This document shows, piece after piece, positions 43,757 to 61,800 of a stretch of 64,000 nt of DNA (positions are counted from its first letter, which is position 1; the number at the start of each line of letters is the position of its first letter). Under the pieces are notes generated by a model, which saw only the letters and a program-made list of their open reading frames with translations, was not told where the DNA came from and made no database searches. This DNA comes from Haladaptatus cibarius D43 (lineage in GTDB: Archaea > Halobacteriota > Halobacteria > Halobacteriales > Haladaptataceae). The position numbers and the translations under genes are program-made. The DNA lies in contig NZ_JDTH01000002.1 of NCBI RefSeq assembly GCF_000710615.1, positions 178,082 through 242,081 on the forward strand, written 5' to 3'.

Positions 43757-43833
43757 TGTCGGGGAGATAGACACCGGGGGCTAAAAGCCCAACCTTTTCC
43801 TCTCGGATTTCCGACCGGGACAATCCATAGATG

Positions 43834-43840
43834 TTTAAAA
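43834..43840 (+). promoter_or_regulatory. TATA box of the glycosylation operon
   Basis: TTTAAAA is centred 25 bp before ATG 43862, predicting a leaderless transcript that begins with the first glycosyltransferase gene. Confidence 0.6.
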
Positions 43841-43861
43841 CAAACCGCCCAACCACCGAAT

Positions 43862-45004
43862 ATGAACCGGCTTGCGAAGGCTGCCGCGGTCGTCGTCGCG
43901 GTCGCTGCAATCCCTTATCTCGCATTTCTCGGCCTATACGGACTCATTCGTCCCGATGGCTCGCCCGCAAAAAAGCGGGAGGCAGAGCCGAGCGTGAGCA
44001 TCGTCCTCCCGACGTACAACGAATCGGACATCATCGAGAAAAAACTGGACGACCTCCTCGAACTGGACTACCCCATGGAGAAAGTCGAACTCGTCGTCGT
44101 CGATTCGAGCGACGACGAGACGCCCGACCTGATTCGGGAGTATCTCGGCGACTACAAACATCCCGAACTGACCCTCATCGAAGAGGAAGAGCGCCGTGGC
44201 CTCGCCCCGGCGCTCAACGACGCCTACGCCGCCGCAAAACACGAGATGGTCGTGAAAACCGACTGCGACTCGTTCGTCGCAAACGACGCGCTTCGCGTTG
44301 CCGCGGCGAATCTCGCTGACCCCGGAATTGCGGCGGTTACCGGACAGAACGCAGAGGTTCTCGGTGGAAGCGAAGTCGAAGAAGGCTATCGCGGCGTGCA
44401 GGCACACGTCCAAACGCTCGAATCACATCTCGATTCGACGCTCATCTTCCACGGGCCGTTCTCCGCGTTCGAAAACGACGCTATCGTTCCCCTCGACCCG
44501 AACTCGCTCGCGGACGACACCGAACTCGCGCTGAAGATTCGCCGAAACGGAAAGCGCGTCGTCTTCGACCCGGACATCCGATACAGCGAGGCCTCACACT
44601 CCGATTTCAAAAAGCGACGATTGCAGAAAGACCGGCGCGGAATGGGTCTAATTCGGCTGCTGTTCCAGCACCGTGACGCTCTCGGCAAGCACGGCAACTA
44701 CGGCGGATTCGTGCTTCCGTTCAACTGGTGGTTCATGATAGTTTCACCGTGGTTGGTCGCGTTGGGGATTGGCTTGCTGACTGGTGCCGTGCTGGTTGCG
44801 GCAGGCCCGTTCGGGTTAGTCGTCCCCAGCGCGCTCGCGGTTTTCGTTCGACTGGGTGGAAACGATCAACTCGGCCCACTGCAACCACTGTACGCGATTT
44901 TCGACGCGCAGGTGTCGCTGTTCCGCGCGAGTTTGGAACTGTTGCGTGGAGAGGGTGATGGAACGTGGGAAATTGATGAGGAACTGCGGGAGGCGTTCGA
45001 ATGA
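43862..45004 (+). CDS. Membrane glycosyltransferase family 2
   Basis: 380 residues. One N-terminal membrane segment (about 6-30), a GT2 domain (about 43-265: SIVLPTYNESDIIEKKLDDL, DSSDDETPDLI, KTDCDSFV, LADDTELALKIRR) and a C-terminal pair of membrane helices (about 285-345). DCDSF is the likely metal/sugar-nucleotide motif. It adds a sugar to the lipid-linked glycan. First gene of the plus-strand agl operon; overlaps the next by 4 bp. Confidence 0.85.
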   Translation: MNRLAKAAAVVVAVAAIPYLAFLGLYGLIRPDGSPAKKREAEPSVSIVLPTYNESDIIEKKLDDLLELDYPMEKVELVVVDSSDDETPDLIREYLGDYKHPELTLIEEEERRGLAPALNDAYAAAKHEMVVKTDCDSFVANDALRVAAANLADPGIAAVTGQNAEVLGGSEVEEGYRGVQAHVQTLESHLDSTLIFHGPFSAFENDAIVPLDPNSLADDTELALKIRRNGKRVVFDPDIRYSEASHSDFKKRRLQKDRRGMGLIRLLFQHRDALGKHGNYGGFVLPFNWWFMIVSPWLVALGIGLLTGAVLVAAGPFGLVVPSALAVFVRLGGNDQLGPLQPLYAIFDAQVSLFRASLELLRGEGDGTWEIDEELREAFE

Positions 45005-46155
45005 GCGACATTGATTCGACTTCGCAGGATTCCAAGTCCGATGCTTCGCCTTCTGTCGCTATTCTTCATGACCGTTTTCCGCAAATCGGTGGCGGTGAGA
45101 AGTTCGCCATTGAGGCGGCTCGAACACTGAATGCTCCAATCTATACGATGTATGTGTACCCAGGCACGGAGATTCCGGACGACGTGCGTGTCATTCCTAT
45201 CAAGCAAGAAAAGTATGCACGTGGTCTGTCGAAACATCTCCTCGCATGGAAAAACGAGGGGTCGAACCCATTTGAAACGCTTTCTGTTGCGATTGACATG
45301 ACCGACGCGCATCCCGACCTCACACAGTACGACGTGGTTTTGGAGAGTGCGCCCCTGTCTAAACACTACGTTCCGACGGTTGACCAGACGATCATCCACT
45401 ATCCACACAGTCCACCGCGATGGCTGTACGACCTCTATCGTGACCGGATGGAATCATTCGACTATCCCGGCGTTCGGTTCGCGCTGAAGACCTACGCGAA
45501 GTGGTGGCGCGCGTTGGACAAGGAAGCGAACGACTTCGTCGATACGTTCGTTGCGAACAGCGAACTCATCCGTGACCGGATTCAGCGGTACTATCACCGG
45601 GACGCAAAAGTCGTCTATCCACCCGTAACTGGAGATTGGCGCAACGAAGGCGACGATGGATACTTTGTCACGTGGTCACGACTCGCGCCCGAAAAAAGAA
45701 TGCCGCTCCTTGCAGAGGCGTTTACCGAACTGGACGAGCGACTCGTCATTGCGGGTGACGGGGCGGAGAGGGAGAAACTGGAACGCATCGCACGCGGTCA
45801 CGACAATATCGAAGTCCGAGGATTCGTCGAGGACATCGAATCGCTCGTCGCTCGTTCGACCGGTGTGGTTTACGCACCAGTACAGGAAGATTTCGGACTC
45901 GTTGGTGCGGAGGCACTGATGGCCGGAAAGCCGCTCCTTGGTGTGAACGAGGGTTTCACGAAATATCAGGTCGAAGAAGGCGTCACTGGCGAACTGTTCG
46001 AATCGACGGTGGAGTCGATTCAAGAAACCGTTCAAGCGTTCGACCCGTCGAACTACGATAGCGACACGATTCAGGAACGGGCTGAACGATACAGCTACGA
46101 ATCGTTCCAGAGCGGACTGTGGAACGCCGTCTGTCAAACGGACGAGGAGGACTAA
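45001..46155 (+). CDS. Glycosyltransferase family 4
   Basis: 384 residues, GT-B fold. The N half begins SVAILHDRFPQIGGGEKFAIEAARTL; the C half has ANSELIRDRIQRYYHR, VVYPPV, WSRLAPEKR, IAGDG and the nucleotide-sugar-binding EDFGLVGAEALMAGKPLLG (about 296-314). It lacks membrane segments and acts at the cytoplasmic face. Donor sugar unknown. It is coupled by ATGA overlap to the previous gene and 1 bp from the next. Confidence 0.87.
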   Translation: MSDIDSTSQDSKSDASPSVAILHDRFPQIGGGEKFAIEAARTLNAPIYTMYVYPGTEIPDDVRVIPIKQEKYARGLSKHLLAWKNEGSNPFETLSVAIDMTDAHPDLTQYDVVLESAPLSKHYVPTVDQTIIHYPHSPPRWLYDLYRDRMESFDYPGVRFALKTYAKWWRALDKEANDFVDTFVANSELIRDRIQRYYHRDAKVVYPPVTGDWRNEGDDGYFVTWSRLAPEKRMPLLAEAFTELDERLVIAGDGAEREKLERIARGHDNIEVRGFVEDIESLVARSTGVVYAPVQEDFGLVGAEALMAGKPLLGVNEGFTKYQVEEGVTGELFESTVESIQETVQAFDPSNYDSDTIQERAERYSYESFQSGLWNAVCQTDEED

Positions 46156-46156
46156 A

Positions 46157-46840
46157 ATGGCGATAGAGCGTCCGATCACTGCGACCGACCCGCGGGTTTC
46201 GGTGGTCGTTCCGACGATTCCCGACAACAGCCACGCCGAAGTCGTCAAGTGTCTCGAATCCCAGACCTTCGATTCGTTCGAAGTACTGGTCGTGAACGAT
46301 GCAACCCTCGATATCTGTGAAGCGAGAAACGCCGGAATCGAGGCCGCGAACGCGACAGTTGTCGCCCTCACGGACGACGACTGCCGCCCGGATTTGGGGT
46401 GGCTCTCCGCCGTCGCACACGAGTTCGATACGCAACCCGACCTCGCCTGTCTAGAAGGCAGAGTAGACGGCGGCCGAACCTATAATGGAAAACGTAAGTA
46501 CGTCGGCTGTAACCTCTCTTTCGACCGAGACGCGGCGCTAGCTGTTGGAGGGTTCGACAGTGAGTACGCCGGCTGGCGCGACGACACCGAATTTGGTTGG
46601 CGGATGGAACGGGACGCCGACGGCGAGTGTCGGTACAGCGATGACGTCCGGATGACGCATCCCGAACAGCCGCGGGCGACCATCGACAAGACACTGGAGG
46701 CGCGACTAAAAGCCGCGTATCCGAACCGATACGAACGCGTTATCGTACCGGATACGACGATAGGCCGATTGAACGACTGGCTGTGGCGGAACGGTGTCTG
46801 GGACTTCGTAGACACTATTCGCTACGGGAGACACCAATGA
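46157..46840 (+). CDS. Glycosyltransferase family 2 (short)
   Basis: 227 residues, soluble. GT2 features: RVSVVVPTIPDNSHAEVVKCLE, NDATLDICEARNAGIEAA, TDDDCRP (DxD region, about 74-80), FDRDAALAVGGFDSEYAGWRDDTEFGWRM. It likely adds a sugar to the glycan lipid. The stop overlaps the start of the sulfatase-like gene (ATGA at 46837-46840). Its 3' end has a decayed copy at 48190-48309. Confidence 0.85.
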   Translation: MAIERPITATDPRVSVVVPTIPDNSHAEVVKCLESQTFDSFEVLVVNDATLDICEARNAGIEAANATVVALTDDDCRPDLGWLSAVAHEFDTQPDLACLEGRVDGGRTYNGKRKYVGCNLSFDRDAALAVGGFDSEYAGWRDDTEFGWRMERDADGECRYSDDVRMTHPEQPRATIDKTLEARLKAAYPNRYERVIVPDTTIGRLNDWLWRNGVWDFVDTIRYGRHQ

Positions 46841-48153
46841 CCAACGTCGCACTCGTCGTGCTAGACACGCTCCGGAAAGATGCGTTCGACAAGCATTTCG
46901 ACTGGCTTCCGGGACGCCGGTATGAGAACGCGTGGAGTACGAGCCACTGGACGGCACCAGCTCACGCCTCGCTGTTCACCGGCAAGTACGCGAGCGAAGT
47001 CGGCATTTACACCAACTCACAGCGATTCGACTGTGAGGAATCCTTGCTTGCCGAACAGTTCGCAGACGCGGGATACACCACGCGAGCGTTCAGCGCAAAC
47101 CCGAACATCTCGCCCGCGTTCGACGCTCACCGGGGATTCCAGCAGTTCGACGGGGAGTTCCGTCTCGAAGAGTTGGGTGAAGAGATGTTCGACTGGGAAA
47201 CGTTCATCGCAGGGTCCAAAGACATGGGATCGGAACGGTTCGCTATCGCGCTGAAACGGTGTCTTTTCGGCGATTACGAGACGATTCCGTCGTTGAAGCA
47301 CGGCGCGAAATTGAAGCTCCGCGATATGGGTTTCGGGAAGACGGACGTCTCCGACGGTGGCGAACGCGCGATTTCCCTTGTTCAAAAAACTGATTTCGGT
47401 AATCGAGAGTTCTTCTTTGCGAACCTCATGGAAGCACACGCACCCTACCATCCACCAGAACCGTTCAAAACGGTCGAGGTAGACGTGGATACTATCCCCG
47501 CAACGGTAGGGAGTCCGGACGCTGAGCCGTCTGACATCCAGCAAGCGTACGATGACAGCGCGCGGTATCTCTCGCACGTGTACGAGCAACTATTCGAAGA
47601 ACTTCGAGCGGATTTCGACGTCATCGTCACCGTCAGCGACCACGGTGAACTGCTCGGTGAACACGGCAATTGGGGGCATATGTTCGGCCTGTATCCCGAG
47701 CTCACGAACGTTCCGCTGTCGATATATACTGCAGACGGGGCGAGCGGCGAGAGCAATGTAGCCGTGAATCTCTGCGATGTTCATCGAACGTTGGTGGAAT
47801 GTATCGATGTCGAGTCGAACAGACGCGGACGGAACCTGCTCGGGGAACTCGATGGTGAGGAGTTCTTGACTGAGTTCCACGGACTACGCAAAGCAAACTA
47901 TCGCGGACTGCGAAACGAAGGATTAGAGGACGCAGATAGAGTGAACGAGAACCGAAACGGGCTTGTTTCCGGCGACTACTACGGATACGAGACGGTGGAT
48001 GGCTGGAGCGAATGCGGGCCGAAACCCTTTGCGAATCCGAAACAGCGTCTCGCCGAACTCGTCGCGGACTGCGACCATCGGCAGGTCGAAGACGAAGAGT
48101 ACGACTTGGACGATGACATCGTGTCCCGACTGGAAGACCTCGGATACGTTTAG
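46837..48153 (+). CDS. Sulfatase-like (alkaline-phosphatase superfamily) enzyme, copy 1
   Basis: 438 residues. The AP-superfamily core is clear: ALVVLDTLRKD (metal Asp, about 5-15), SHWTAPAHASLFTG (nucleophile region, about 36-49), NLMEAHAPYHPP and VSDHGELLGEHGNWGH (Asp-His pair, near 266-281). The residue at the formylglycine position is Thr, not Cys or Ser, so sulfate-ester activity is unsure; Thr is the usual nucleophile of phosphotransferase or phosphodiesterase relatives. It probably edits the glycan by removing or moving a sulfate or phosphate group. No signal peptide. Confidence 0.78.
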   Translation: MTNVALVVLDTLRKDAFDKHFDWLPGRRYENAWSTSHWTAPAHASLFTGKYASEVGIYTNSQRFDCEESLLAEQFADAGYTTRAFSANPNISPAFDAHRGFQQFDGEFRLEELGEEMFDWETFIAGSKDMGSERFAIALKRCLFGDYETIPSLKHGAKLKLRDMGFGKTDVSDGGERAISLVQKTDFGNREFFFANLMEAHAPYHPPEPFKTVEVDVDTIPATVGSPDAEPSDIQQAYDDSARYLSHVYEQLFEELRADFDVIVTVSDHGELLGEHGNWGHMFGLYPELTNVPLSIYTADGASGESNVAVNLCDVHRTLVECIDVESNRRGRNLLGELDGEEFLTEFHGLRKANYRGLRNEGLEDADRVNENRNGLVSGDYYGYETVDGWSECGPKPFANPKQRLAELVADCDHRQVEDEEYDLDDDIVSRLEDLGYV

Positions 48154-48189
48154 CGGGACTTCGCGCTTCTCCGGCCAATCGGAGTCGCA

Positions 48190-48309
48190 TCTGCCGACCG
48201 ATACGGAAACGTTATTGTACCAGATGAGACAATAGGAGGAATAAATCATAGCTGTAGCGAAACCGAGTCTGGGACTTCGTGGATGCTATTTGAAGTAAAG
48301 GATAACTAA
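48190..48309 (+). pseudogene. Decayed 3' end of a short glycosyltransferase gene
   Basis: In frame, this stretch reads RYGNVIVPDETIGGIN, close to RYERVIVPDTTIGRLN near the end of the GT2 protein at 46157-46840, then diverges and stops at TAA 48307-48309 at the start of the next gene. The DNA GGGACTTCGT and the start-overlap layout are also kept. It shows that a block of glycosyltransferase plus sulfatase-like gene was duplicated and the first member lost. Confidence 0.8.
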
Positions 48310-49604
48310 TGACGAACGTTGCACTCATTGTACTCGATACCCTTCGCAAGGATTACTTCGACAAACACTTCGATTGGCTCTCCGGTACCCGGTTCGAGAA
48401 CGCATGGAGTACAAGTCACTGGACGGCGTCGGCGCACGCTTCGATGTTCACCGGGAAGTACCCAAGCGAACTGCCCGTAAACAAGAAGAACGAGTTTTTC
48501 CCGGCGACTGAACCGTCCCTCATCGAACAGTTGGCCAAGAACGGCTATCGGACGCGAGGGTTCACGTCGAACATCTACATGTCCTCAAACTTCAACTTCG
48601 ACAAAGGGTTCGACGAACTCGAAGTGTCGTGGCGCGTCAAACAAATCCCGAACGAAGACACGTTCAATTGGGGGGCGTTCATCTCGAAACATCAGGACGA
48701 CGGGCCGTCACGGTACGTCAAAGCACTCTATCAGTGTCTCACTGACGATTCCGACACGGTTCCGTCGTTGAAGTACGGGGCCAAGATGAAACTGAACGAC
48801 CTCGGCGTCATTTCGCACGAAGACGAAGGGAGCAAACGGGCGTTGGAGTACGTCCGGAAGTCGAACTTCGACGCGGACGGGGAGTTTCTCTTCTTGAATC
48901 TCATGGAAGCGCACGCCCCCTACGACCCTCCGGAGGAGTACAAAACAGTCGAGCGACCCGAAATAAACAAACGGCGGCCGTCGCTGACCGGCGGCTACGA
49001 CGACCCGGAGTGGCCGCGCACCGCATACGATGACGCCGTCCGATACCAGTCGGACATGTACGAAAAGATATTCCGAGCGGTTCGGGAAGACTTCGACGTG
49101 GTCATCACCGTCGCGGACCACGGCGAGATGCTCGGCGAGGACGGCGCGTGGCTGCACTGGCTTGGGATTCGTCCGGAAGTGAGCCACGTCCCACTTTGCA
49201 TCTCCGGTGACGTTGACATTCCGGACCCCGAGAGCGTTGCCAGCCTCGTGGATGTTCACGCGACAGTCGCGGACATCGCAAACCTCGACGTGTCGAGTCC
49301 GCGAGGAGCCTCTTTGCTCCGGTCTACGAACCGCGACGCGAGGCTAGTCGAATATCGAGGGCTGGCACAGCGTCGGCGAGAGGTCGTCGAGAAGGTCGGT
49401 GGCGACCCGGACGAATACGACCGAGATTGCTATGGAATTGCTGAAAAAAAGTACCATTACGAGACGCTCGATGGGTTCGTCGGCGACAAGGAGTGGCAAC
49501 AAAAACTCTCGGAACTGGTCGAGTCGTTCGACTTCGAAGCGGCCTCGTCGGACGGCGTCTCGGATTCGGTGGTCGAACATTTAGAAGACCTCGGTTATGC
49601 CTAA
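48309..49604 (+). CDS. Sulfatase-like (alkaline-phosphatase superfamily) enzyme, copy 2
   Basis: 431 residues, a close paralogue of the previous enzyme. Motifs are matched: ALIVLDTLRKD, SHWTASAHASMFTG, NLMEAHAPYDPP and VADHGEMLGEDGAWLHW. The Pro of the nucleophile motif is Ser here, and a His expected after the second metal-site Asp pair (GEHG) is Asp (GEDG), so activity may differ from copy 1. It arose by tandem duplication; see 48190-48309. It overlaps a small open frame at its stop. Confidence 0.75.
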   Translation: MTNVALIVLDTLRKDYFDKHFDWLSGTRFENAWSTSHWTASAHASMFTGKYPSELPVNKKNEFFPATEPSLIEQLAKNGYRTRGFTSNIYMSSNFNFDKGFDELEVSWRVKQIPNEDTFNWGAFISKHQDDGPSRYVKALYQCLTDDSDTVPSLKYGAKMKLNDLGVISHEDEGSKRALEYVRKSNFDADGEFLFLNLMEAHAPYDPPEEYKTVERPEINKRRPSLTGGYDDPEWPRTAYDDAVRYQSDMYEKIFRAVREDFDVVITVADHGEMLGEDGAWLHWLGIRPEVSHVPLCISGDVDIPDPESVASLVDVHATVADIANLDVSSPRGASLLRSTNRDARLVEYRGLAQRRREVVEKVGGDPDEYDRDCYGIAEKKYHYETLDGFVGDKEWQQKLSELVESFDFEAASSDGVSDSVVEHLEDLGYA

Positions 49605-49757
49605 TCACTTACTTGCCAGTGCTACCATTCCGGCACTCGATTGGCCTCGGTTAGTCGAACGAGTGGTCAAGATGCTCCGGCAACCAAAGCGCGGTTCGAG
49701 CACACGATGACGGCCAAGACACTCGAACGTGCCGCCCATCGTGGAGACGACGTATGA
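49597..49757 (+). other. Chain of two short overlapping reading frames
   Basis: A frame from ATG 49597 (overlapping the previous stop) encodes 37 residues and stops at 49710; ATG 49707 then opens 16 codons that stop at 49757, overlapping the flippase ATG at 49754. Each junction is of the ATGA type used elsewhere in the operon. They could be coupling leaders or the remains of a gene; no peptide is recognised. Confidence 0.35.
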
Positions 49758-51229
49758 CCGAAGCGACTGATGTGAGCCTTGGTGGCGAGACGGGGAAGGC
49801 GGCAATTGCCAAGTTTGCAATGGCCGCGGTCGGGTTCGTCGCTAGTATCTTTTTTGCTCGGGAACTCGGTCCGGGAGCGTTCGGTGGATACTACCTGCTG
49901 TTCGGTTTGGTGAAATTCGCAGACCGGCCGCTGATGGGGTGGGCGACAGCGAGCAAAAAACGATTTGCTGATGACGAGACCAAGCGACGAGAAATCGTCG
50001 GTTTGCAATTCCTCTTCAACGCAGCCTGGATTCTCCTCGCCGCAGTCACAGCGTTGTTGTTGGCCAGCAACATTCGGTCGTATAGCGGCCTCGCTATCGG
50101 ACCGCTACTGTTCGTAATCTTGCTCGTATCCGAGTCGAACTACGAAGCGTTCGATCGCATCCTCACGGCGAGGGGGCAGGTCGGACTCGCAACGTGGGCT
50201 GATGCACTCCGGTCGTATCTGACACTTCCGTTACAGGCACTTTTCGTGTTCGCTCTCGCGGGCTACGGCGCGGACGGGATGGTCTACGGTCTTGCAGGTG
50301 CGACAGTACTGACGTTTCCCATCGTTTTCTACTTCATCAAGACGAAACCAGCGATACCGTCGCTCGATACGCTCGCTAGTGTCGCTCAGTACGCCCGGTA
50401 TAGCATCCCAACTGACCTCTTCATGAATCTGTACAGTCGTCTCGACATGATTTTGCTCGGCATACTGTTGGTACCGGCGACGGCGGCGAACTATCAGGTC
50501 GCGGCCCAGTTGACGGTTCCGGCGACGTTCGTTGCATCGCTGGCTGGAAGTGGTCTGATGCCCCGGGTGAGTCGGCTTTGGACCGAGGGGAAGGCGGTCG
50601 GTCAGGAGGTGACGAACGCGATTGCGTTTTCGAGCGTGTTCGCGGTTCCTATCCTGTTCGGTGCCTTGGCGATTCCGAACGCGCTCGTTGTGACGGTGTA
50701 CGGATCGGAGTACGCCCTCGGAGCATCACTCATCGCTAGCATAGCGGCGTACCAGTTTCTCGCGACGCAGACGACGCCGTTGATTCAAACGCTCAACGGT
50801 ATCGATAGACCGGACGTGAACATGCGCGCGTCCGGTATCGCACTCTCGGTCAACATCGTTCTCGGAGTGATTCTTACGCTCCAGTTCGGCCCGATTGGGG
50901 TCGTTATTTCCTCGCTCGTCGCGGAGAGCCTCATCTACGTGTTCACCGCGTACGTCGTGAAGCGACAGGTTCCATCAGTGGAACTGGTTCCGCGTCCACT
51001 GTGCGTACAGGTGAGTACCGGTGTGATAATGTTTCTCGTCGTCTCTGCAGTTAGTCGTGTCGTAGTCGTTCAGTCGTGGTTCGACCTCGGAATACTGCTC
51101 ACAGTCGGTGCGACAACGTACGTAGGTGTATTGCTAGTCGTGAGTCCAGCGATTCGGACTACTGTTGGCAGTGTTTTGGATGGCTCTCGACTCGAAACAT
51201 ACATCCCGAGACGCTTCTTAAATTGGTAA
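49754..51229 (+). CDS. Oligosaccharide flippase (Wzx/RfbX-like, AglR-like)
   Basis: 491 residues with about 12-14 membrane segments and the MOP-superfamily pattern: GGETGKAAIAKFAMAAVGFVASIFFARELG, GGYYLLFGLVKFADRPLMGW, PLIQTLNGIDRPDVNMRASG. It probably flips the dolichyl-linked glycan across the membrane so AglB can use it; the name AglR-like is a guess from function and position. It sits between the glycan assembly genes and aglB, 53 bp before the latter. Confidence 0.85.
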   Translation: MTEATDVSLGGETGKAAIAKFAMAAVGFVASIFFARELGPGAFGGYYLLFGLVKFADRPLMGWATASKKRFADDETKRREIVGLQFLFNAAWILLAAVTALLLASNIRSYSGLAIGPLLFVILLVSESNYEAFDRILTARGQVGLATWADALRSYLTLPLQALFVFALAGYGADGMVYGLAGATVLTFPIVFYFIKTKPAIPSLDTLASVAQYARYSIPTDLFMNLYSRLDMILLGILLVPATAANYQVAAQLTVPATFVASLAGSGLMPRVSRLWTEGKAVGQEVTNAIAFSSVFAVPILFGALAIPNALVVTVYGSEYALGASLIASIAAYQFLATQTTPLIQTLNGIDRPDVNMRASGIALSVNIVLGVILTLQFGPIGVVISSLVAESLIYVFTAYVVKRQVPSVELVPRPLCVQVSTGVIMFLVVSAVSRVVVVQSWFDLGILLTVGATTYVGVLLVVSPAIRTTVGSVLDGSRLETYIPRRFLNW

Positions 51230-51282: not shown

Positions 51283-54200
51283 ATGAGCCAAGGCACAGAA
51301 CAGGTCGAGGAGTCCTCCAATCTCGCTGACTCCGTCCTCGACCAGATAGAAGACTGGTACCACATCCCTGCGCTCGCGCTTTTGCTGGGATTCATGTTGT
51401 GGGTTCGCCTGCAGTCCTACGACAGGTTCACCCGTAACGGCGAGGTGTTTCTCGCCGGTAACGACGCGTGGTACCACCTCCGACAAGTACAGTACACAGT
51501 CAACAACTGGCCCGCGACGATGCCGTTCGACCCGTGGACGTACTACCCCCAAGGGACGAGCGTCGGGCAGTTCGGCACGCTTTACGACCAACTCGTCGCA
51601 ACTGCCGCGCTAATCGTCGGCCTCGGTGTCCCATCGCAGCAGACGGTTGCGCTGACGCTACTGGTCGCCCCAGCGGTGTTCGGCACGCTCGTCGCAGTTC
51701 CGACCTACTATGTCGGAAAACGACTCGGTGGTCGTCTCGGCGGCGTATTCGGCGTCCTCATCCTCGCATTGATTCCGGGTGAGTTCCTCCGCCGTGGATT
51801 GGTCGGATTCGCCGACCACAACGTCGTGGAACCGTTCTTCCAGACGCTCGCCGTGCTGGCAATGATGGTCGCCGTCTCGGTTGCCGAACGGGAACGTCCC
51901 GTCTTCGAGCTGCTGGCCGACCGTGATTTCGCGGCGGTTCGCCGCCCACTCGGCTATAGCGTCCTCGCAGGTGTTGCGACCGCGCTCTACCTCTGGACGT
52001 GGCCGCCGGGAATTCTCCTCATCGGCATCTTCGGCGTCTTCTTCATGCTGAAACTGACCGCGGATTACGTCCGCGGCATTAGTCCAGACCATCTCGCCTT
52101 CGTCGCGTCGGTCAGCATGGGCGTGACGGGTCTCCTTTTGCTCGTTCCGCTCGGGACGATTTCGTTCAGCGCGACGAAGTTCTCCATCCTCCAACCGCTC
52201 ATGGCGTTCGCCGTCTCGATTGGCGCAGGATTCATGACGTGGTTGGCGCGCGAGTGGGACGACCGAGACGTTTCGCCGATGCTGTATCCGGTCGCCATCT
52301 TCGGCATTCTCGCCATCGGAACCCTGCTCGTCTACGTCGCGCTCCCGAACCTATTCAACCTGATTCAGAATAATCTGGTTCGATTCGTCGGGTTCAACGC
52401 GGGCGCGGCACAGCGAACCATCGGTGAAGCACAACCGTTCCTGCAAGGGTCACAGTCGCTTTCGTCGGCGGTCATCCCGCAGTACGGCCTGATGTTCTTC
52501 ACCGCCATTCTCGGCGCGCTGGTGATGGTCTGGCGTGCGGTGTCGGCCGACGAACACGAGGCCGAAAAACTGCTCATCCTCGTCTGGGCGGCCTTCATCA
52601 CCGCCGCCGCGTTCACGCAGGTTCGATTCAACTACTATCTCGCGGTTCCGGTCGCGGTGCTGAACGCCTACCTCCTCGGATGGATTCTCGGGGCGGTCGG
52701 ATTCGACAGTACGACGCGCGATACGATTCGAAACGTCGAGATGTATCAGGTGTTGGCAGTTATCTTCGTTATCATGCTCGTCGTCCCCGGATTGGTCATG
52801 CCGGTGCAGGTCGGCAACGGCCAGACGGCCACCGCGGCCCAGACCGGTAACAGCACCGCGCCCGGTGCTGTTACCCAGTGGGATGGCACGTTAGAGTGGA
52901 TGCAGACGAACACGCCAGAAGAAGGCAACTACGGCGGTGCCGGAAACGAAATGGAGTATTACGGCACCTACACGGAAGGCGACGGCGATTACGACTATCC
53001 GGAGGGGAGCTACGGCGTCATGTCGTGGTGGGACTACGGTCACTGGATTACGGTCGAAGGTGAGCGAATCCCGAACGCTAACCCGTTCCAAGAAGGTGCA
53101 ACCACGGCCGCAAACTACCTGCTCGCCCAGAACGAATCCGAGGCGAACGAAGTGCTGAACGAACTCGGTGACGAAAACGAGCAGACCAAGTACGTGATGG
53201 TCGATTGGAAGATGGTCGAAACGAACGGCCAGCAAGGGAACGTGAAGTTCTTCGCGCCGACGGTGTTCAAAGACGGCGTCTCATCGGGTGACTATTATGA
53301 GTACGTCTACACGCAGCGGAGCCGAATCGCTCAACACAAACAACCGTACTACGACAGCCAGATGGTTCGACTGTACCGCTATCACGGAAGCGCGGTCGAA
53401 CCGAGACCAATCGTGCTGGACTGGGAGACGACGCAAGGACAGAACGGACAACCCGTCAAGGTTGCTCCAAGTGCCCTCTCGCAGAACGCGAACGACACGG
53501 TCGTAAAGCGATTCGACACGATGCAGAAAGCCCGCGAGTACGTCCAGAACGACCCGACGTCGCAAATCGGCGGCATCGGGCCGTACCCGAGCGAGCGCAT
53601 CTCCGCGATGGAACACTACCGCGTCGTGAAAGAAAGCCAGTCACAATCGACGCAGGTTCCGTCGCACTATCAGGTGCTTAGCCAGCGAGTGGGACTGCTT
53701 CAACAAGCGGGGATCTCCACACAGGACTACTTCCGCACGTCGCCATCGTGGGTGAAGACCTTCGAGCGAGTTGACGGTGCGACGGTGGAAGGAACCGGGC
53801 CTGCGAACACCAACATCACCGCCTCGGTTCGGATGCAGACGGACACCGGAAGCGCGTTCACCTACACGCAGAAGGCACAAACGGACGAGAACGGCGAGTT
53901 CACGATGACCCTGCCGTACTCCACGACTGGCTACGACCAGTGGGGAACTGACGAAGGCTACACGAACGTCAGCGTCCGTGCGGCCGGGCCATATGAGTTC
54001 CGAACGCCGCAAACCGCTGGTGAGGACGGTTTCGAGTTCACGAACGGCACGGCACAGGTTTCGGAAGCAAAAGTGCTCGGCGAGGACGACAGCCCCGTCA
54101 CGGTGTCGGTTGACCAACAGCAGACGATTCCGGTGGAAGGCGCGAACAATTCGACCGGCAACAACTCCGCAGGCCCGAGTAACCCCGGCAATCAGACGGG

Positions 54201-54348
54201 AGACAACTCGTCCGCCGGAAACGGGTCGGTCGGCAACAACTCGACCGGAAACGAGTCGAACTCGCTTCCAGGCCCCGCGTCGCCGCTGACGCGAGGCAGT
54301 CTCGTCGGTGCGTATGCGGCGACGTTGGTCATCGCTCGACGCGACTGA
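51283..54348 (+). CDS. aglB: Oligosaccharyltransferase AglB
   Basis: 1021 residues, STT3/AglB type. It transfers the lipid-linked glycan to Asn of N-X-S/T in exported proteins. About a dozen membrane segments fill the first 530 residues; NDAWYHLRQVQYTVNN (with the catalytic Asp, near 63-78) and GFADHNVVEPFF are the two loop acidic sites, and SWWDYGHWITVEGERIPN holds the WWDYG motif (about 581-585). The outer C-terminal domain ends with a Ser/Asn/Gly-rich tail full of sequons and a weakly hydrophobic end (GAYAATLVIARRD). Confidence 0.93.
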   Translation: MSQGTEQVEESSNLADSVLDQIEDWYHIPALALLLGFMLWVRLQSYDRFTRNGEVFLAGNDAWYHLRQVQYTVNNWPATMPFDPWTYYPQGTSVGQFGTLYDQLVATAALIVGLGVPSQQTVALTLLVAPAVFGTLVAVPTYYVGKRLGGRLGGVFGVLILALIPGEFLRRGLVGFADHNVVEPFFQTLAVLAMMVAVSVAERERPVFELLADRDFAAVRRPLGYSVLAGVATALYLWTWPPGILLIGIFGVFFMLKLTADYVRGISPDHLAFVASVSMGVTGLLLLVPLGTISFSATKFSILQPLMAFAVSIGAGFMTWLAREWDDRDVSPMLYPVAIFGILAIGTLLVYVALPNLFNLIQNNLVRFVGFNAGAAQRTIGEAQPFLQGSQSLSSAVIPQYGLMFFTAILGALVMVWRAVSADEHEAEKLLILVWAAFITAAAFTQVRFNYYLAVPVAVLNAYLLGWILGAVGFDSTTRDTIRNVEMYQVLAVIFVIMLVVPGLVMPVQVGNGQTATAAQTGNSTAPGAVTQWDGTLEWMQTNTPEEGNYGGAGNEMEYYGTYTEGDGDYDYPEGSYGVMSWWDYGHWITVEGERIPNANPFQEGATTAANYLLAQNESEANEVLNELGDENEQTKYVMVDWKMVETNGQQGNVKFFAPTVFKDGVSSGDYYEYVYTQRSRIAQHKQPYYDSQMVRLYRYHGSAVEPRPIVLDWETTQGQNGQPVKVAPSALSQNANDTVVKRFDTMQKAREYVQNDPTSQIGGIGPYPSERISAMEHYRVVKESQSQSTQVPSHYQVLSQRVGLLQQAGISTQDYFRTSPSWVKTFERVDGATVEGTGPANTNITASVRMQTDTGSAFTYTQKAQTDENGEFTMTLPYSTTGYDQWGTDEGYTNVSVRAAGPYEFRTPQTAGEDGFEFTNGTAQVSEAKVLGEDDSPVTVSVDQQQTIPVEGANNSTGNNSAGPSNPGNQTGDNSSAGNGSVGNNSTGNESNSLPGPASPLTRGSLVGAYAATLVIARRD

Positions 54349-54416
54349 ACAGCAGTTCTTTTAATTCGTCTCTCCGGCCCCTATCCTCATATTCATGCTT
54401 CTCGTAGCAAGCAGCA

Positions 54417-55430
54417 GTGACGAGAGACGAGCGAGAATCGAGTACCGTCGAGCGTGGATGGGAATCGTTTTTTGATTGGCCCGGAAATCCCGGAGCAATG
54501 CGCGCCCTCTTGACGATTTACCTGAAGGGGATCTGCATGGGTGCCGCCGACGCGGTGCCCGGCGTCTCCGGCGGGACGATTGCCCTCATCACGGGAATCT
54601 ACGAGCGACTCATTTCGGCAGTCGCGTCGTTCAATCCCAAAATTGTAACGAGCGTGTTCCAGATACACGACCCGGACGAACGGGCAAAGGTTCTGGCGAT
54701 GCTCGAAGAGATGGACTTGCCGTTCTTGCTTGCCCTCGGTGCCGGAATCGCAACCGCAATCCTGACCGTCACCGGATTGGTAACGCTCGCAAGCGAACGG
54801 GTTCCGGTGCTCCTTTTTGCCTTCTTCTTCGGGCTCATTGCGGCGTCGGCCATCGTTCTTTACGACGAGGTTTCAGTCGAGACGCCGGGCCAAATCGGCG
54901 CGGCCATCGCCGGATTTACCCTCGCGTTTCTCGTGGCCGGCGCGGTGGAGCAGGGTGGCGGTTCCCAACCGCTTCCAATCGTGTTCTTCACCGGTGTGAT
55001 TGCTATCAGTGCGATGGTGCTTCCGGGGATTTCGGGTGCGCTCATCCTCATGCTCCTCGGACAGTACAAGTACCTCTCGAACAATCTGCACGGGTTCAAA
55101 GACGCGGTCGTCGGCCTTCTCAACGGCGGTTCCGTTGATGCTCTCGTTGCGCCGGGCGCGGTCGTCATCACGTTCGTAGTTGGTGCAGGAATTGGTATCC
55201 TCACCGTTTCGAAGGCCGTTTCGTGGGCGCTCGACCACTATCGCGCGGCAACACTCACCTTCCTCGTCAGTCTGATGGTCGGCGCGCTTCGGTTCCCTAT
55301 CGAGAGACTACTTATAGCGGATACGTTCGCGTGGACGCCGAGCGTTCTCGGTGGTGCAGTCTTCGCCGCACTCGTCGGCGGTGGGGCAGTCCTCCTCCTC
55401 GACCGCTACACCGACGACCTCGACTACTGA
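54417..55430 (+). CDS. DUF368-family membrane protein (PopT-like polyprenyl-phosphate translocase)
   Basis: 337 residues with two inverted-repeat half units. The first has KGICMGAADAVPGVSGGTIALITGIYE (about 37-63); the second has GVIAISAMVLPGISGALILMLLGQYKYL (about 193-220). This is the DUF368 hallmark. Bacterial members move undecaprenyl phosphate across the membrane; here the natural cargo would be dolichyl phosphate released by AglB. GTG 54417 is the start taken; ATG 54498 is a shorter option. It lies 68 bp after aglB in the same direction. Confidence 0.85.
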   Translation: MTRDERESSTVERGWESFFDWPGNPGAMRALLTIYLKGICMGAADAVPGVSGGTIALITGIYERLISAVASFNPKIVTSVFQIHDPDERAKVLAMLEEMDLPFLLALGAGIATAILTVTGLVTLASERVPVLLFAFFFGLIAASAIVLYDEVSVETPGQIGAAIAGFTLAFLVAGAVEQGGGSQPLPIVFFTGVIAISAMVLPGISGALILMLLGQYKYLSNNLHGFKDAVVGLLNGGSVDALVAPGAVVITFVVGAGIGILTVSKAVSWALDHYRAATLTFLVSLMVGALRFPIERLLIADTFAWTPSVLGGAVFAALVGGGAVLLLDRYTDDLDY

Positions 55431-56125: not shown

Positions 56126-56770
56126 ATGGATACAAATAATCAACTTGGTGAGGTAAACAAGTCCCTCTGGTGGTTTGGGTGGCGGCCGAGAGCGACGGCA
56201 GCCCTTGGAATTGGCTTTGGATTGGTCATCGCATATCTCACACAAAGCGCCGCGGGATTCGTCATCGGGTTCTCTACCATCGTCGCATTCTGGTATATTG
56301 GGACGAGAGAAATCAATAATCGATATCGGTCAGTTCTCAAAACGTATGCCGACTACACGACGAAGGCAGGAAAGCGAATGCTCCAACTTTCGCCGGACGA
56401 GACATCATCGTACACACTGACCTACGGTTCGGGACTGTCGTTGTCCGTCAACCCGAGCAAACAATACTATTCGACCAGTTTACTCGTCGGAGATACCTCC
56501 GTTTCCATCCACGAAGGCGTTGGACTCGACATGGTAAATCGAGTCCCATATCTCGATGACAGCACGAGAGAACTGTACTACGACCAGATTTCGTCGGTGA
56601 GCTACGACAACCCATATCTAGAAATCAAAACATCTGATGGAGATACACTTCGGTATCAATCCAGTCGCCAACCGGATGACGCCCTGACAGACTTACAGAA
56701 CCGACTCCGGAGTTACAAGAGAAACATTCGACAGGAACCCAAAGCGAGTGCTCCCGGCGCGCGAGCCTAA
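56126..56770 (+). CDS. Membrane protein with soluble C-terminal domain, unknown
   Basis: 214 residues. Two hydrophobic segments near 24-62 (ATAALGIGFGLVIAYL, SAAGFVIGFSTIVAFWYI), then a beta-rich cytoplasmic domain (TYGSGLSLSVNPSKQYY, TSVSIHEGVGLDMVNRV, YYDQISSVSYDNPYLEI) like a PH-type fold. AT-rich upstream. It overlaps the glpC 3' end by 4 bp (convergent). Confidence 0.6.
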   Translation: MDTNNQLGEVNKSLWWFGWRPRATAALGIGFGLVIAYLTQSAAGFVIGFSTIVAFWYIGTREINNRYRSVLKTYADYTTKAGKRMLQLSPDETSSYTLTYGSGLSLSVNPSKQYYSTSLLVGDTSVSIHEGVGLDMVNRVPYLDDSTRELYYDQISSVSYDNPYLEIKTSDGDTLRYQSSRQPDDALTDLQNRLRSYKRNIRQEPKASAPGARA

Positions 56771-58107
56771 TTCACGAGCGCCGAATCCAGCACTTCGAGC
56801 GGATGTCGAATGTCGTAGCCCGTCCCGTGATTCATCTGCATCGCGCAGGTCGGACATTCGGTCATGCCCGTTTCGCTTTCAACGTCTTCCATGTGTTCGA
56901 ACATCTCGTCGCCGATTTTCATCGACGTGTCGTACTTCTCCGATTTCCACCCGTAGGTGCCGCTGATACCGGAACAGGAGTCGCCCACGTCCACCGGGTC
57001 GGTGCCGTCGAGTGCGGACAGCAGTTCGACGGCCTGTCCGTCGAGTCCCTGATTTTTGGCGTGGCACGGCGCGTGGTAGGCCAGTTCGCCGAACTCGGAT
57101 TCCGGAACCGACGAATCGGCGAGTTCGCCCTCCAAATCCTCGTGAACCCGGAGATATTCGAGGGCTTCGAATGTGTTCGCGGCGACCTTCGCGGTTCCGT
57201 CGAACGAGTAGAGTTCCGGGTACTCCTGCCGGAGCGCCATCGAACAGGACGTACACGAGCAAATTACGTCGTAGCCTTGCTCGACTAACGCGGCGAAGGT
57301 TTCGATGTTGAACTTCGCGGCGCGGCGCGCATCGTCCATCATGCCGTTGGCGAACATCGGCGTGCCGGAACAGCGCTGGTCGGGCACGGCGACTTCGTAG
57401 CCGAACTGCTCAAACACGCGAACCATGGCTTTCGCCACCTCGGGCGTGTTGTAATTCGAGTAGTCACCGTGGAAGTAGGCGACTCGCTTGTCGTCGTTCT
57501 CCGCCGCATCGCCGCGTTTTGTCCGCGCCTCCTGCGCTCGCTCTTTCGATGTGGCTTTGCCACCTCGCTTTTCCCACCAGTCCGTAAACGTCTCTGTCGC
57601 AAAGTCGGGAAACTCGCGCTGGCTCGTAATTCCCATCACTTTCTCGTTCACGAACTTCGTCACGGACAGTCCCATGACGAAGTTCGTGAGTCGCGGGAAT
57701 TTGGAGGCGAGTGGCGCGAGTCTGCCGTAGTTCGACAGAATCCGGTTTCGGATGTACTCCCGCGACAATTTTGACATCTGTTCGTCCACGTACTTGCCGC
57801 GGGCCGTGTTGTGCATCTGGGAAAGCGGCACTTCGGATGGGCAAGCGTTATCACAGCGCATGCAGTTCGAACAGGACATCACCGAATCGTCGATGTCGTG
57901 GTCGCCCTTGCGCTTGAGTCGCCACTGCTCCGGCCCTTGGAACTTCGGCCCGGGGAAGTCGTCGTCAACCTCCGCGACCGGACACTCCGTGTCGCAGGTG
58001 GAGCATTTGTAACAGTCGTCCGACCCCGGTCTGAGGTCCATCGGTTCGCCACTGAATACGTCCTGTAGTTCGGATGGATTTCGTGATTCTGCTTCCTTCT
58101 CACTCAT
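56767..58107 (-). CDS. glpC: Anaerobic-type glycerol-3-phosphate dehydrogenase subunit C
   Basis: 446 residues. Two ferredoxin-type 4Fe-4S sites at the N terminus (CYKCSTCDTECP near 32-43; CSNCMRCDNACP near 79-90) and two cysteine-rich CCG-type domains (ICSCTSCSMALRQEYPEL; CSGISGTYGWKSEKY with ECPTCAMQM) pass electrons to the quinone pool. It anchors the complex to the membrane. It overlaps glpB by 4 bp. Confidence 0.93.
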   Translation of the reverse strand: MSEKEAESRNPSELQDVFSGEPMDLRPGSDDCYKCSTCDTECPVAEVDDDFPGPKFQGPEQWRLKRKGDHDIDDSVMSCSNCMRCDNACPSEVPLSQMHNTARGKYVDEQMSKLSREYIRNRILSNYGRLAPLASKFPRLTNFVMGLSVTKFVNEKVMGITSQREFPDFATETFTDWWEKRGGKATSKERAQEARTKRGDAAENDDKRVAYFHGDYSNYNTPEVAKAMVRVFEQFGYEVAVPDQRCSGTPMFANGMMDDARRAAKFNIETFAALVEQGYDVICSCTSCSMALRQEYPELYSFDGTAKVAANTFEALEYLRVHEDLEGELADSSVPESEFGELAYHAPCHAKNQGLDGQAVELLSALDGTDPVDVGDSCSGISGTYGWKSEKYDTSMKIGDEMFEHMEDVESETGMTECPTCAMQMNHGTGYDIRHPLEVLDSALVN

Positions 58108-59390
58108 GGATTCACCTCGTCGCTTGCCTTTCGTCCCGCGACAGTGCCGGTCGAAAGCGAGACGCCGCTTGCTGATTTCTCCGCCGAAACGTCGCAGTTA
58201 CCGAGAACGCCGCCGACAGCGCGGAGGTTCTCGAACTCCGGTTCGCCCGCCGAATCGAGCGGGCGCAGTTCGTCGTCCACCTGCACCCCAAATCGAGCGA
58301 ATGCATGGTTGTCGAACGCCCCGTCTTCCGACCACTCGTATCGGTCTTCCGGCGCGGGAACGCGACAGTCGAAAATCGGTTCGCGGACGCCCTCCCGGTC
58401 GGAGTCGATTCCCTTCCCGACCAGTCCGCCGGTTGCCAGCACGAACTGCTCGCCGTGGAACGGAATCGCCGCGCCGTTTCGCTCCACGACGACCGCGGAA
58501 ATCTCGCCATTGTCCCCGCTCTCGAAATCAACGACCGGGTTTCCGGTCGTGATTCGAACGCCCGCCTCCTTCAGTGCGCTTTCGAACTGCGCTTCGAGGC
58601 GCATTCCGGGCAGACTTGGCGGTCCCATCGGGATTTCGAACACCTCGACGTCCAGTTTTCGTTCGAGGGTCGCCCGAACGTCCTCCGGGTGGTCTTCGCC
58701 CAACATCGCGGGAAAGCCGATTCGTTCCGCATCGCCGAGATGGGGTTTGATTTTCTCCGCAAGCGCGATTCGAACCGGTTCCGACTGGGAGACGTTCTCG
58801 CTACTCCCGATTTCGACGCGCTCGTTTTTGTCCAGCGCGTGGGCCAGTCTGGTTATTTTGGCGTCGGTTCGAAACTCGCCGGGGAACGACAGCGTGACGC
58901 CGCGAACGTCGAACGGAACCGTTTCCCGGAGATGCTCCGCGGCCACCGGGGCATCGAAGTCCACAACCGTCTCGAACCCGACGAGCAGGGTGTCGCGCTC
59001 GTCGCTTGCCAATCCGGGTGCGGTGTGTTTCGGGTATCGCGCTGTCGGCTTGATTCGCCCCCCGAACGTCGGGACGAGCGCGTTTCTGTCGGTGTGGTCG
59101 CCCGCGTAGTCGGCCACCGAATCGAACAGGGCGAGTCCGGCGCGGACGCCGTCCTCGCCGACCTTTTGATACGGGTGTTCGTCCGGCAGTGCAGAAATCG
59201 TCTCGAAGGGATTCGAGACGATTTCGCCTTCAACGTAGCCCAGCACGTCGATAAGCCCGCTGGCGAACCGCAGGGTGCTCTCTTTGTGCGAAAGCAGTCT
59301 GACCCGCGACCCCTCGCGAGCCGCGGACAGCGCGGTTGTCATTCCGGCCAACCCGCCTCCGATGACGACGACATCGTCCTCAATCGCCAT
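58104..59390 (-). CDS. glpB: Anaerobic-type glycerol-3-phosphate dehydrogenase subunit B
   Basis: 428 residues, flavin-binding. The dinucleotide motif [20 protein letters not shown] (about 7-26) is clear, and the C terminus has [29 protein letters not shown], as in GlpB. It links the GlpA dehydrogenase to GlpC. ATG 59390 matches the family start ([13 protein letters not shown]) and overlaps the glpA end by 11 bp; 59408 is an alternative. Confidence 0.92.
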
Positions 59391-61110
59391 TAATTCCTCC
59401 GTCGCCATCGACGACTCCCTTTCCGTTTCGACCTGCGTCGAACGCCGAGAAGTCGATGGTGTCGGTTTCGGCGTCCTGCCCTCCGTTCGCCTCCGGGGCA
59501 TCCCGGTTCATCGTCGTCGCGTGGAGCGCATAGTTCAGCGCGGCCTGCGAGAGCTGTTCGCCCCAGAGGGCGTGGCGCTCGCCCTTCCAGCGTTCCTGAA
59601 ACAGTTCGTCCAGTGCTTCGCGGGCGGTCGGTTCGTCGTGTTCCGGATGGAGTTCGTTCGCCATCCGATGACAACAGATGCCGCCCTGACAGTTGCCCAT
59701 CGAGGCACGGGTTCGAATTCGAACCGCATTCAGGTCGGTGCCCGACCCGTCGATTGCGTCTTGAATTTCGGACTGCGTGACGGCTTCACATTCACAGAGA
59801 ACCGGGTTCGGCCCGTCCGTTTTCAGGACGTCGTCGGCCCGACTGCCGAGTCGCTGGACGCTCCGCCGTCCGATTGGCGAGCGAATTCCGAACTCGTCCA
59901 TGTAATCGCGGAGGATCGAAAAATCGTCGCTTCCGGGGAGCGGTTCGTCGGCGGTTCTACATCTGCCGCGAACCCCGAGTTGGTCGCAGACGTGGTCGGA
60001 AATCTGTTCCGCCATCGCCCGATACGTGGTGAACTTCCCGCCGACGATGCTGGTCAGGCCGGTTAGGCCGTCGCGTTCCTCGTGGTCTAAGAGGAAGAAA
60101 TCCCGCGTGATGTCCGTCGGGTCTGTGGTTCCCGTCCCCGGCGGTTCGTACAGCGGGCGAACACCCCAAAACGACCGAACCGTTCGGGAGTCACGAAGGA
60201 TGGGAACCAGTTTCGACAACTGGTCTATCATCATATCAACTTCCCAGCCTTCTTCGGGGTAGTTTTCAGGGTCAGAAACTTCCTCGTCGGTCGTTCCGAG
60301 AATCGCGGTCACCTCGTGCGGGACGATGATGTCTGCGTCGCCTTTCGGTCGGCAGTGGTTGATGACCGTATCTACTTGTCGGCAGTTCATCACGACCATC
60401 ACGCCTTTCGAGGGACGAACTTCGATATCCACGCCCGCCATCTCGCCGAGTTGCCCGGCCCACGCCCCAGTCGCGTTGACCACGTAGTCGGCCCGGATTT
60501 CTTCTTTCGTGCCGGGCCTCGCGTGGTTTCGCTTGCCCGGCCCGCTTTCGTGGCGGACTTCGACGCCGACCACGTCGTTTTCGTCCACGAGTACGTCAGT
60601 CACTTCCGCGTGCGTTTCGATTCGCGCGCCGTGCATCTCCGCGTCGGCGGCGTTGGCGACGCAGAGACGGAACGGGTCGATTGCACCGTCGGGAACCGAG
60701 ATTGCGCGTTTTACGTCCTTCGTCAGGTAGGGTTCTTGATCGCGCGCTTCCTTCGCGGTGAGGACTTCCGCCGGGATGCCACACTCCCGACAGCCTCGGA
60801 GTTTTTCCTCGAAATAGTCGTCGGAGTCACCTTCCAACTGGACGAACTGGCCGCCCGTCATCTCGACGCAGTGGCTGGCGATGTCCCGGAGGACGCGATT
60901 TTCTTCGATACATTCCGTGGCGCTCGCTTGGTCGGAGACGGCGTACCGGCCGCCGCTGTGGAGCAGGCCGTGCATCCGGCCCGTCGTTCCGTGGGTTAGA
61001 TTGCCTTTTTCCACCAGCGTCACGTCAACTCCCCGCAATGCGAGGTCGCGGGCGATGCCCGTGCCCGTCGAGCCACCCCCCACGACGAGCACTTCGGCGT
61101 CGTTTGCCAT
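59380..61110 (-). CDS. glpA: Glycerol-3-phosphate dehydrogenase, catalytic subunit A
   Basis: 576 residues. It oxidises glycerol 3-phosphate to dihydroxyacetone phosphate using FAD. The FAD fingerprint [21 protein letters not shown] (about 7-27), [18 protein letters not shown] and the Cys-rich [2Fe-2S]-type domain (LCECEAV with GNCQGGICC, about 444-486) are seen. Operon glpA-glpB-glpC is tightly packed. In haloarchaea this is the main route for glycerol released by algae. Confidence 0.94.
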
Positions 61111-61800
61111 GTTTGGTAGTTAGTTGGAGTCCACTTTACGATACCGCCCGTTTTCCGTGGGAATCGGAAGACGGCTTCCGGATAATATTGCCAGCTCGAA
61201 AGGACAGCCAATCGGCGATGTTAGTGGTGGACTGTCTTCAAACAGGTTGGTTACAGCTACGGACTCTACTACACGACCGCCACCGCATGCGCCACGAGGT
61301 TTGTGAAGATTCACGCGACATTCGATTTCCAACACGGCGCGCGAAGGCGACGATAGTCGTCCGCGCGAGGTCTTCGTGAGCGACGACGGAGTTCTCGTGA
61401 GCGAAGCGAACGAGAGCACGGAAGAGCGTGTCTCTTCCGGAGCGAGCGAACGAATCGGTTGGAGAGACGTGCGGGCGGTTTCATTGGAGTCGTGACTTGT
61501 AAACGACACCGCGAAACATCATGGTGAAACAACTCTTGGAAACAAACTCTGAAACTCGGTGTCCGTTCCCTTCTGTTCGCAGTTCACTGGACTGCGCTGT
61601 CGTCCCCTCCACCGAAACTGCATCCTTCATTCCAGCAGACAAATATCCAATAATTTCTCGATTCGTCGTTATTTCGAACACTAACGGACAAACGGATTCG
61701 AATTACACAGAGACAGAAACAAAAACCAAGAAATTCGAAACAATTTTAACATAAGTTATTTATAACCATATTTTATTTGGGAGTACGTCACATTGTGAGC
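61111..61800. other. Long divergent gap between glpA and glpK
   Basis: 690 bp with no credible gene. Two short frames (61521-61754 plus, 61481-61681 minus) show no recognised pattern. The part 61340-61460 has several inverted repeats, such as GGAAGAG with CTCTTCC near 61419-61437, and a GTGAGCGAAGCGAACG run often found in haloarchaeal intergenic DNA. The last 150 bp are AT-rich and hold the glpK promoter. It must contain the control region of both glycerol operons. Confidence 0.6.
61756..61765 (+). promoter_or_regulatory. TATA box of glpK
   Basis: TTATTTATAA lies about 40 bp before ATG 61801, predicting a leader of roughly 15 nt. Confidence 0.55.

Follow-up and report, generated by a model that had tools for sequence, protein, structure and literature searches.

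The 64,000-nucleotide stretch of the Haladaptatus cibarius D43 genome analysed here (the window; contig NZ_JDTH01000002.1, positions 178,082–242,081) carries the oligosaccharyltransferase gene aglB followed by popT, which encodes a DUF368 family protein. A preliminary description of the window had placed a DUF368 gene directly after aglB, and this was borne out by the open reading frames (ORFs), by Pfam PF04018 for PopT and by NCBIfam TIGR04154 for AglB (963.6 bits, cut-off 450). AglB also matched the Pfam profiles STT3 (89.8 bits), AglB_core (87.7), and AglB_L1 (65.0), and its translation contains GNDAWYH and WWDYG, which we take to be the catalytic motifs. PopT passed PF04018 ('undecaprenyl phosphate translocase-like') with 211.6 bits against a cut-off of 26, covering profile positions 1–226 of 246; this was its sole Pfam match, and the PF09335 (DedA/UptA) domain was not found in it. 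Each gene is single-copy, with one DUF368 match and one STT3 match in the source genome (G000, 99.97% complete), and the window PopT shares 92% identity with that of Haladaptatus litoreus. The two genes are separated by 68 bp if popT starts at the GTG at 54417. This start is uncertain, and the sequence also offers an ATG at 54498, which would give a gap of 149 bp.

Linkage of aglB and popT within and beyond Halobacteria

We searched 292 Halobacteria genomes for DUF368 and STT3, and found the former in 289 and the latter in 283. A first pass over the 282 genomes with both genes placed found 187 in which DUF368 began <4.5 kb beyond the start of STT3 and shared its strand, 11 further genomes with DUF368 one or two genes farther, and 84 unlinked. 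In each of the 198 pairs within 7 kb, aglB came first and popT shared its strand. The first pass relied on Pfam STT3 lists and missed some AglB proteins. Direct AglB comparison around the unlinked PopT reclassified two genomes as linked (G272 and G164) and added three without an STT3 match (G043, G069, and G231), for a final linkage of 203/285 Halobacteria with both genes. In the linked genomes PopT was never farther than one or two genes past aglB, and order and strand were constant. In one of the added genomes, G043 (L245), a seemingly partial AglB ORF (288 bits) stands beside PopT and the genome has no STT3 match; either the gene is broken or the assembly is faulty. Outside the 285 are three genomes with no STT3 match (G118, G282, and G285), one with no AglB found near PopT (G225), and three with no DUF368 (G021, G186, and G205). 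Neither DUF368 nor STT3 was found in G186 and G205, which could be joint loss or a shared assembly gap.

Linkage was seen in 9 of the 10 sampled families holding both genes (f1 6/7, f2 18/18, f3 30/58, f4 31/72, f5 93/103, f7 7/7, f8 10/10, f9 6/6, f10 2/3, f11 0/1), where family labels were transcribed by hand and f4 was the default. Two of the unlinked genomes (G161 and G261) have their PopT rows close to the ends of short contigs (L214 and L235), and second copies are undercounted since some two-copy genomes were listed with one PopT. AglB was also upstream on the same strand in 43/43 named halobacterial loci, a set picked by likeness to the window PopT and thus not unbiased, with some loci cut by contig ends. 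Chance adjacency of aglB and popT was considered as an explanation and is ruled out by the class survey.

The pair was tighter than its surroundings. AglB was present in 55/55 linked loci outside Haladaptatus, and the next most frequent neighbour, apart from antisense frames to AglB and PopT, occurred in 25/55; a member of this cluster is an AglG-type glucuronosyltransferase by NCBIfam NF041394. No neighbour was as constant as aglB, and the other glycan genes varied between loci while popT stayed. Among 91 measured aglB-popT pairs, in which some organisms appear twice, 10 overlapped by 1 base, 10 by 4, and 19 had gaps of 0–20; larger overlaps are inflated by the longest-ORF rule. Overlaps of 1 and 4 bases are often seen in co-translated genes.

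Beyond the class, we sampled 294 genomes of the phylum, of which 241 (G292–G532) were non-Halobacteria. STT3 was found in 220 of these 241 (272/294 less 52 Halobacteria) vs DUF368 in only 37, all of which also held STT3. In none of the 37 were the two genes within 7 kb. They were on different contigs in 23/37, so some linkage could be hidden. The neighbourhood survey proposed in the preliminary description thus returned a linkage kept in Halobacteria but not seen within 7 kb in the sampled non-Halobacteria of the phylum, and these counts rule out a universal archaeal role of PopT; the claim for archaea in general was not supported. We rejected one candidate for linkage in f30, a methanogen family by guess, where 13.7–15.5 kb separate AglB from PopT, both on one strand, in four genomes (G370, G378, G394, and G476; L153–L156), because many unrelated genes, as read from translations, lie between them in L153. 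Two Thermoplasmatota loci, L078 (4313–10921) and L094 (4187–10978), have PopT preceded by an STT3 protein on its own strand, at ~3.2 and 2.0 kb, respectively; the genes between the two look unrelated in L078, and with two loci this case is a lead only.

Two kinds of PopT

PopT shares its Pfam family and two conserved repeats with DUF368 proteins from Vibrio cholerae (VCA0040), Staphylococcus aureus (SAOUHSC_00846), and Haloferax volcanii (HVO_RS12060), and both repeat motifs stay invariant between archaeal and bacterial PopT. Defining DUF368 by two PG(V/I)SG repeats in broken membrane helices is our own usage. In an alignment of 62 sequences, built after dropping four short loci and those with ORFs >345 aa, M41, G42, A44, P48, G49, S51, G52, G53, T54, and A56 of the first repeat and L202, P203, G204, S206, G207, and L211 of the second were invariant (62/62). 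The AlphaFold model (mean predicted local distance difference test score, pLDDT, 86.8) predicts helix breaks at residues 47–51 and 202–206, the positions of both PGxSG motifs, and these modelled breaks resemble re-entrant loops. Sequence searches of the PDB found no solved relative of PopT, and Foldseek against the PDB gave no matches at E ≤ 0.001. The best fold match by VIA-align was to ZIP zinc transporters (Z 7.0), which is not clearly above background.

A quick IQ-TREE phylogeny of 140 rows, from which short, truncated, or duplicate loci were left out, separated a single clade of halobacterial PopT from the other archaeal and bacterial sequences (support 100). Within it, 16 unlinked rows formed one group (99) inside a larger group (100) with linked or near-linked f5 rows. 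In a larger FastTree phylogeny with 71 additional loci, 75 unlinked rows and no linked rows formed a single clade (support 99), which we named PopT-B (L117–L119, L121–L123, L125–L128, L131, L134, L135, L162, L165, L167, and most of L177–L244). Another 16 unlinked halobacterial rows fell outside PopT-B, besides three non-halobacterial rows. PopT-B occurs in families f3, f4, f8, and f11. The 16 PopT-B loci examined shared no constant neighbour; apart from PopT and its antisense frame, no cluster reached more than 5/16. Some genomes hold a linked PopT together with PopT-B, e.g., G005 (L161/L162), G025 (L164/L165), and G044 (L166/L167). On the simplest reading, the linkage would be old in the class, and PopT-B would have derived from the linked form and replaced it in many genomes.

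The gene run around the pair

The same-strand run 5' of aglB (43823–51229) encodes three glycosyltransferases, a pair of sulfatase-fold proteins, and one flippase, which is MOP-type (Table 1); AglR, too, is MOP-type. One gene run thus holds glycan assembly, outward flip, transfer and, presumably through PopT, return. A scan for promoters and terminators relied on bacterial patterns and was uninformative for this locus.

Table 1 Features of the aglB-popT locus, in window positions.
Feature	Position	Strand	Basis
GT2 glycosyltransferase, start uncertain (longest ORF from 43556)	43823-45004	+	PF00535 71 bits
GT4 glycosyltransferase	45001-46155	+	PF00534 66.5 bits
GT2 glycosyltransferase	46157-46840	+	PF00535 37 bits
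Sulfatase-fold protein	46831-48153	+	PF00884 71.4 bits
Sulfatase-fold protein	48309-49604	+	PF00884 72 bits
MOP-family (Wzx/AglR-like) flippase, candidate for outward flip	49754-51229	+	PF13440 42.3 bits
aglB: oligosaccharyltransferase, long C-terminal form, 1021 aa	51283-54348	+	ORF, Pfam, NCBIfam
popT: DUF368 (PF04018) polyprenyl-phosphate translocase-family protein, 337 aa	54417-55430	+	ORF, Pfam, AlphaFold model
PopT first conserved repeat, around MGAADAVPGVSGGTIALI (about residues 39-58)	54531-54590	+	alignment, model
PopT second conserved repeat, around AMVLPGISGALIL (about residues 199-211)	55011-55049	+	alignment, model

The sulfatase-fold genes stand in tandem within the glycan run (46831–49604), and relatives were seen near some other aglB loci. 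The genes 3' of popT (56767–63351) we take, judging by their translations, to be glpC, glpB, glpA, and glpK. Homologues of these genes lie near popT in Haladaptatus and Halorussus, with one weaker match (L069) among the other named loci. Their proximity to popT is largely confined to those two genera, which makes aglB-popT the older unit.

Proposed return of the lipid carrier

We consider it probable that the PopT following AglB is a haloarchaeal DUF368 member that carries dolichyl phosphate (DolP) from the outer leaflet back to the inner one. In bacteria, DUF368 proteins return undecaprenyl phosphate, likewise a monophosphate (PMC9876793, PMC12826051). Characterised archaeal N-glycans have a dolichol monophosphate donor in all but one case (PMC4476749), and Halobacterium salinarum may use both dolichol mono- and pyrophosphate. 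The glycan that H. volcanii AglB transfers comes from DolP (PMC3871713, PMC4476749), so transfer leaves DolP outside. With a haloarchaeal donor that is mostly monophosphate, the lipid set free by AglB would already belong to PopT's substrate class, and no phosphatase would have to act in between. The preliminary description had left the returned carrier as DolP or the pyrophosphate; DolP is the better supported, while the pyrophosphate sits poorly with donors that are nearly all monophosphate (PMC4476749).

In the cycle we propose, sugars would be assembled on DolP on the inner side of the cell and the MOP-type flippase would flip the charged lipid outward. AglB would then pass the glycan to asparagine, with bare DolP staying outside, and PopT would bring the DolP back. 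AglR and Agl15, the proposed flippases of H. volcanii (PMC3871713), likewise act in lipid translocation in this pathway, but differ from PopT in that their proposed task is the outward flip of sugar-charged DolP, for which the window has its own MOP-type protein. Compared with bacterial DUF368, haloarchaeal PopT is tied to an oligosaccharyltransferase instead of peptidoglycan, and DolP is its likely carrier.

Sit and others (PMC9876793) report that a V. cholerae DUF368 mutant, which grows poorly under alkaline conditions, is complemented at least in part by HVO_RS12060, the DUF368 protein of H. volcanii. H. volcanii aglB is HVO_RS12050 (PMC5131992, PMC7749143), which puts the DUF368 gene two tags past aglB. 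One surveyed genome (G113, L158) gives the matching order of aglB, an AglM-type dehydrogenase (NF041297) on the other strand, and popT. DolP return is the best reading because of the match between AglB's product and PopT's substrate class, the gene order, and this cross-kingdom rescue. The text of PMC9876793 searched here mentions neither aglB nor glycosylation. Our literature search, which left subscription papers and preprints mostly uncovered, found no paper joining DUF368 with aglB or oligosaccharyltransferase, no glycosylation phenotype for PopT, and no gene assigned to the archaeal lipid-carrier return step. Both the DUF368 family and the general idea have been published before; the conserved linkage to AglB seems, within the literature searched, to be unreported. 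That PopT closes the dolichol cycle, as the preliminary description suggested, gains from the conserved halobacterial linkage, although linkage itself shows neither transport nor direction. The recycling idea has more behind it than the sequence alone could show, yet it applies only to Halobacteria. We infer DolP as substrate, the direction, and N-glycosylation as the main user of PopT.

Several observations weigh against DolP return by PopT. The pair is unlinked in 82/285 Halobacteria, so linkage is not required, and one genome (G021) has STT3 without DUF368. Among the non-Halobacteria with STT3, 183/220 lack DUF368, and another protein must serve there. PopT did not reach the NCBIfam PlprenPhTp equivalogs NF052564 and NF052563 (186.1 and 76.1 bits, cut-offs 400), which places it in the wider DUF368 family outside these two narrow groups. 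Complementation by HVO_RS12060 was partial, in bacteria, and with undecaprenyl phosphate (PMC9876793). DedA proteins occur in 55/56 sampled Halobacteria, with as many as 6 matches in a genome, and could perform the same function. UptA/COG0586 DedA proteins are proposed for the same carrier return in bacteria (PMC10127716, PMC12826051); they belong to a different Pfam family (PF09335) and are encoded elsewhere in the same genomes. They might be the main DolP recyclers of Halobacteria, with PopT assisting only when pH or salt is high, in keeping with their presence in all three Halobacteria without DUF368 and with the importance of PopT under alkaline and DedA under acidic conditions in bacteria (PMC9876793). 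We regard this division of labour as rather unlikely given that DUF368 occurs in 289/292 Halobacteria and is most often tied to aglB. The spread of DedA means that a popT mutant may show a conditional defect only.

A closer contender, to which we give somewhat less than an even chance, is that PopT recycles polyprenyl phosphate for all surface glycans, exopolysaccharide and glycolipids included, and sits at aglB merely because glycan genes gather there. PopT-B, with none of its 75 sampled rows linked, evidently serves cells with aglB elsewhere, and a lipid-carrier glycosyltransferase for exopolysaccharide, AepG, is known from Haloarcula hispanica (PMC9943897). The other glycan genes around aglB, however, change by locus while popT stays, and the frames of the pair often overlap. 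The absence of a PDB relative by sequence, and of anything clear by fold, would also suit a pair joined only by descent or co-transcription, with PopT moving another lipid or an ion; we know of no haloarchaeal member with a solved structure or an assayed substrate. Such a different substrate is quite improbable, as order is kept over 9 families while other neighbours reshuffle, and the H. volcanii protein partly rescues the DUF368 mutant (PMC9876793). A bolder version of DolP return, which we put forward tentatively and think doubtful, is that aglB-popT is a dedicated transfer-and-return unit whose two proteins are co-produced and may also work in concert, released DolP being retaken at once, with PopT-B an offshoot that took over the task in many genomes. 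If true, PopT would be an assigned DolP-return translocase of N-glycosylation.

Return of the lipid carrier is needed by N-glycosylation everywhere, and PopT is the best candidate for this recycling step of archaeal protein glycosylation in Halobacteria. What had been a remark in one paper is now a candidate that has a gene name and can be tested: HVO_RS12060, the second gene past aglB in the genetically tractable H. volcanii.

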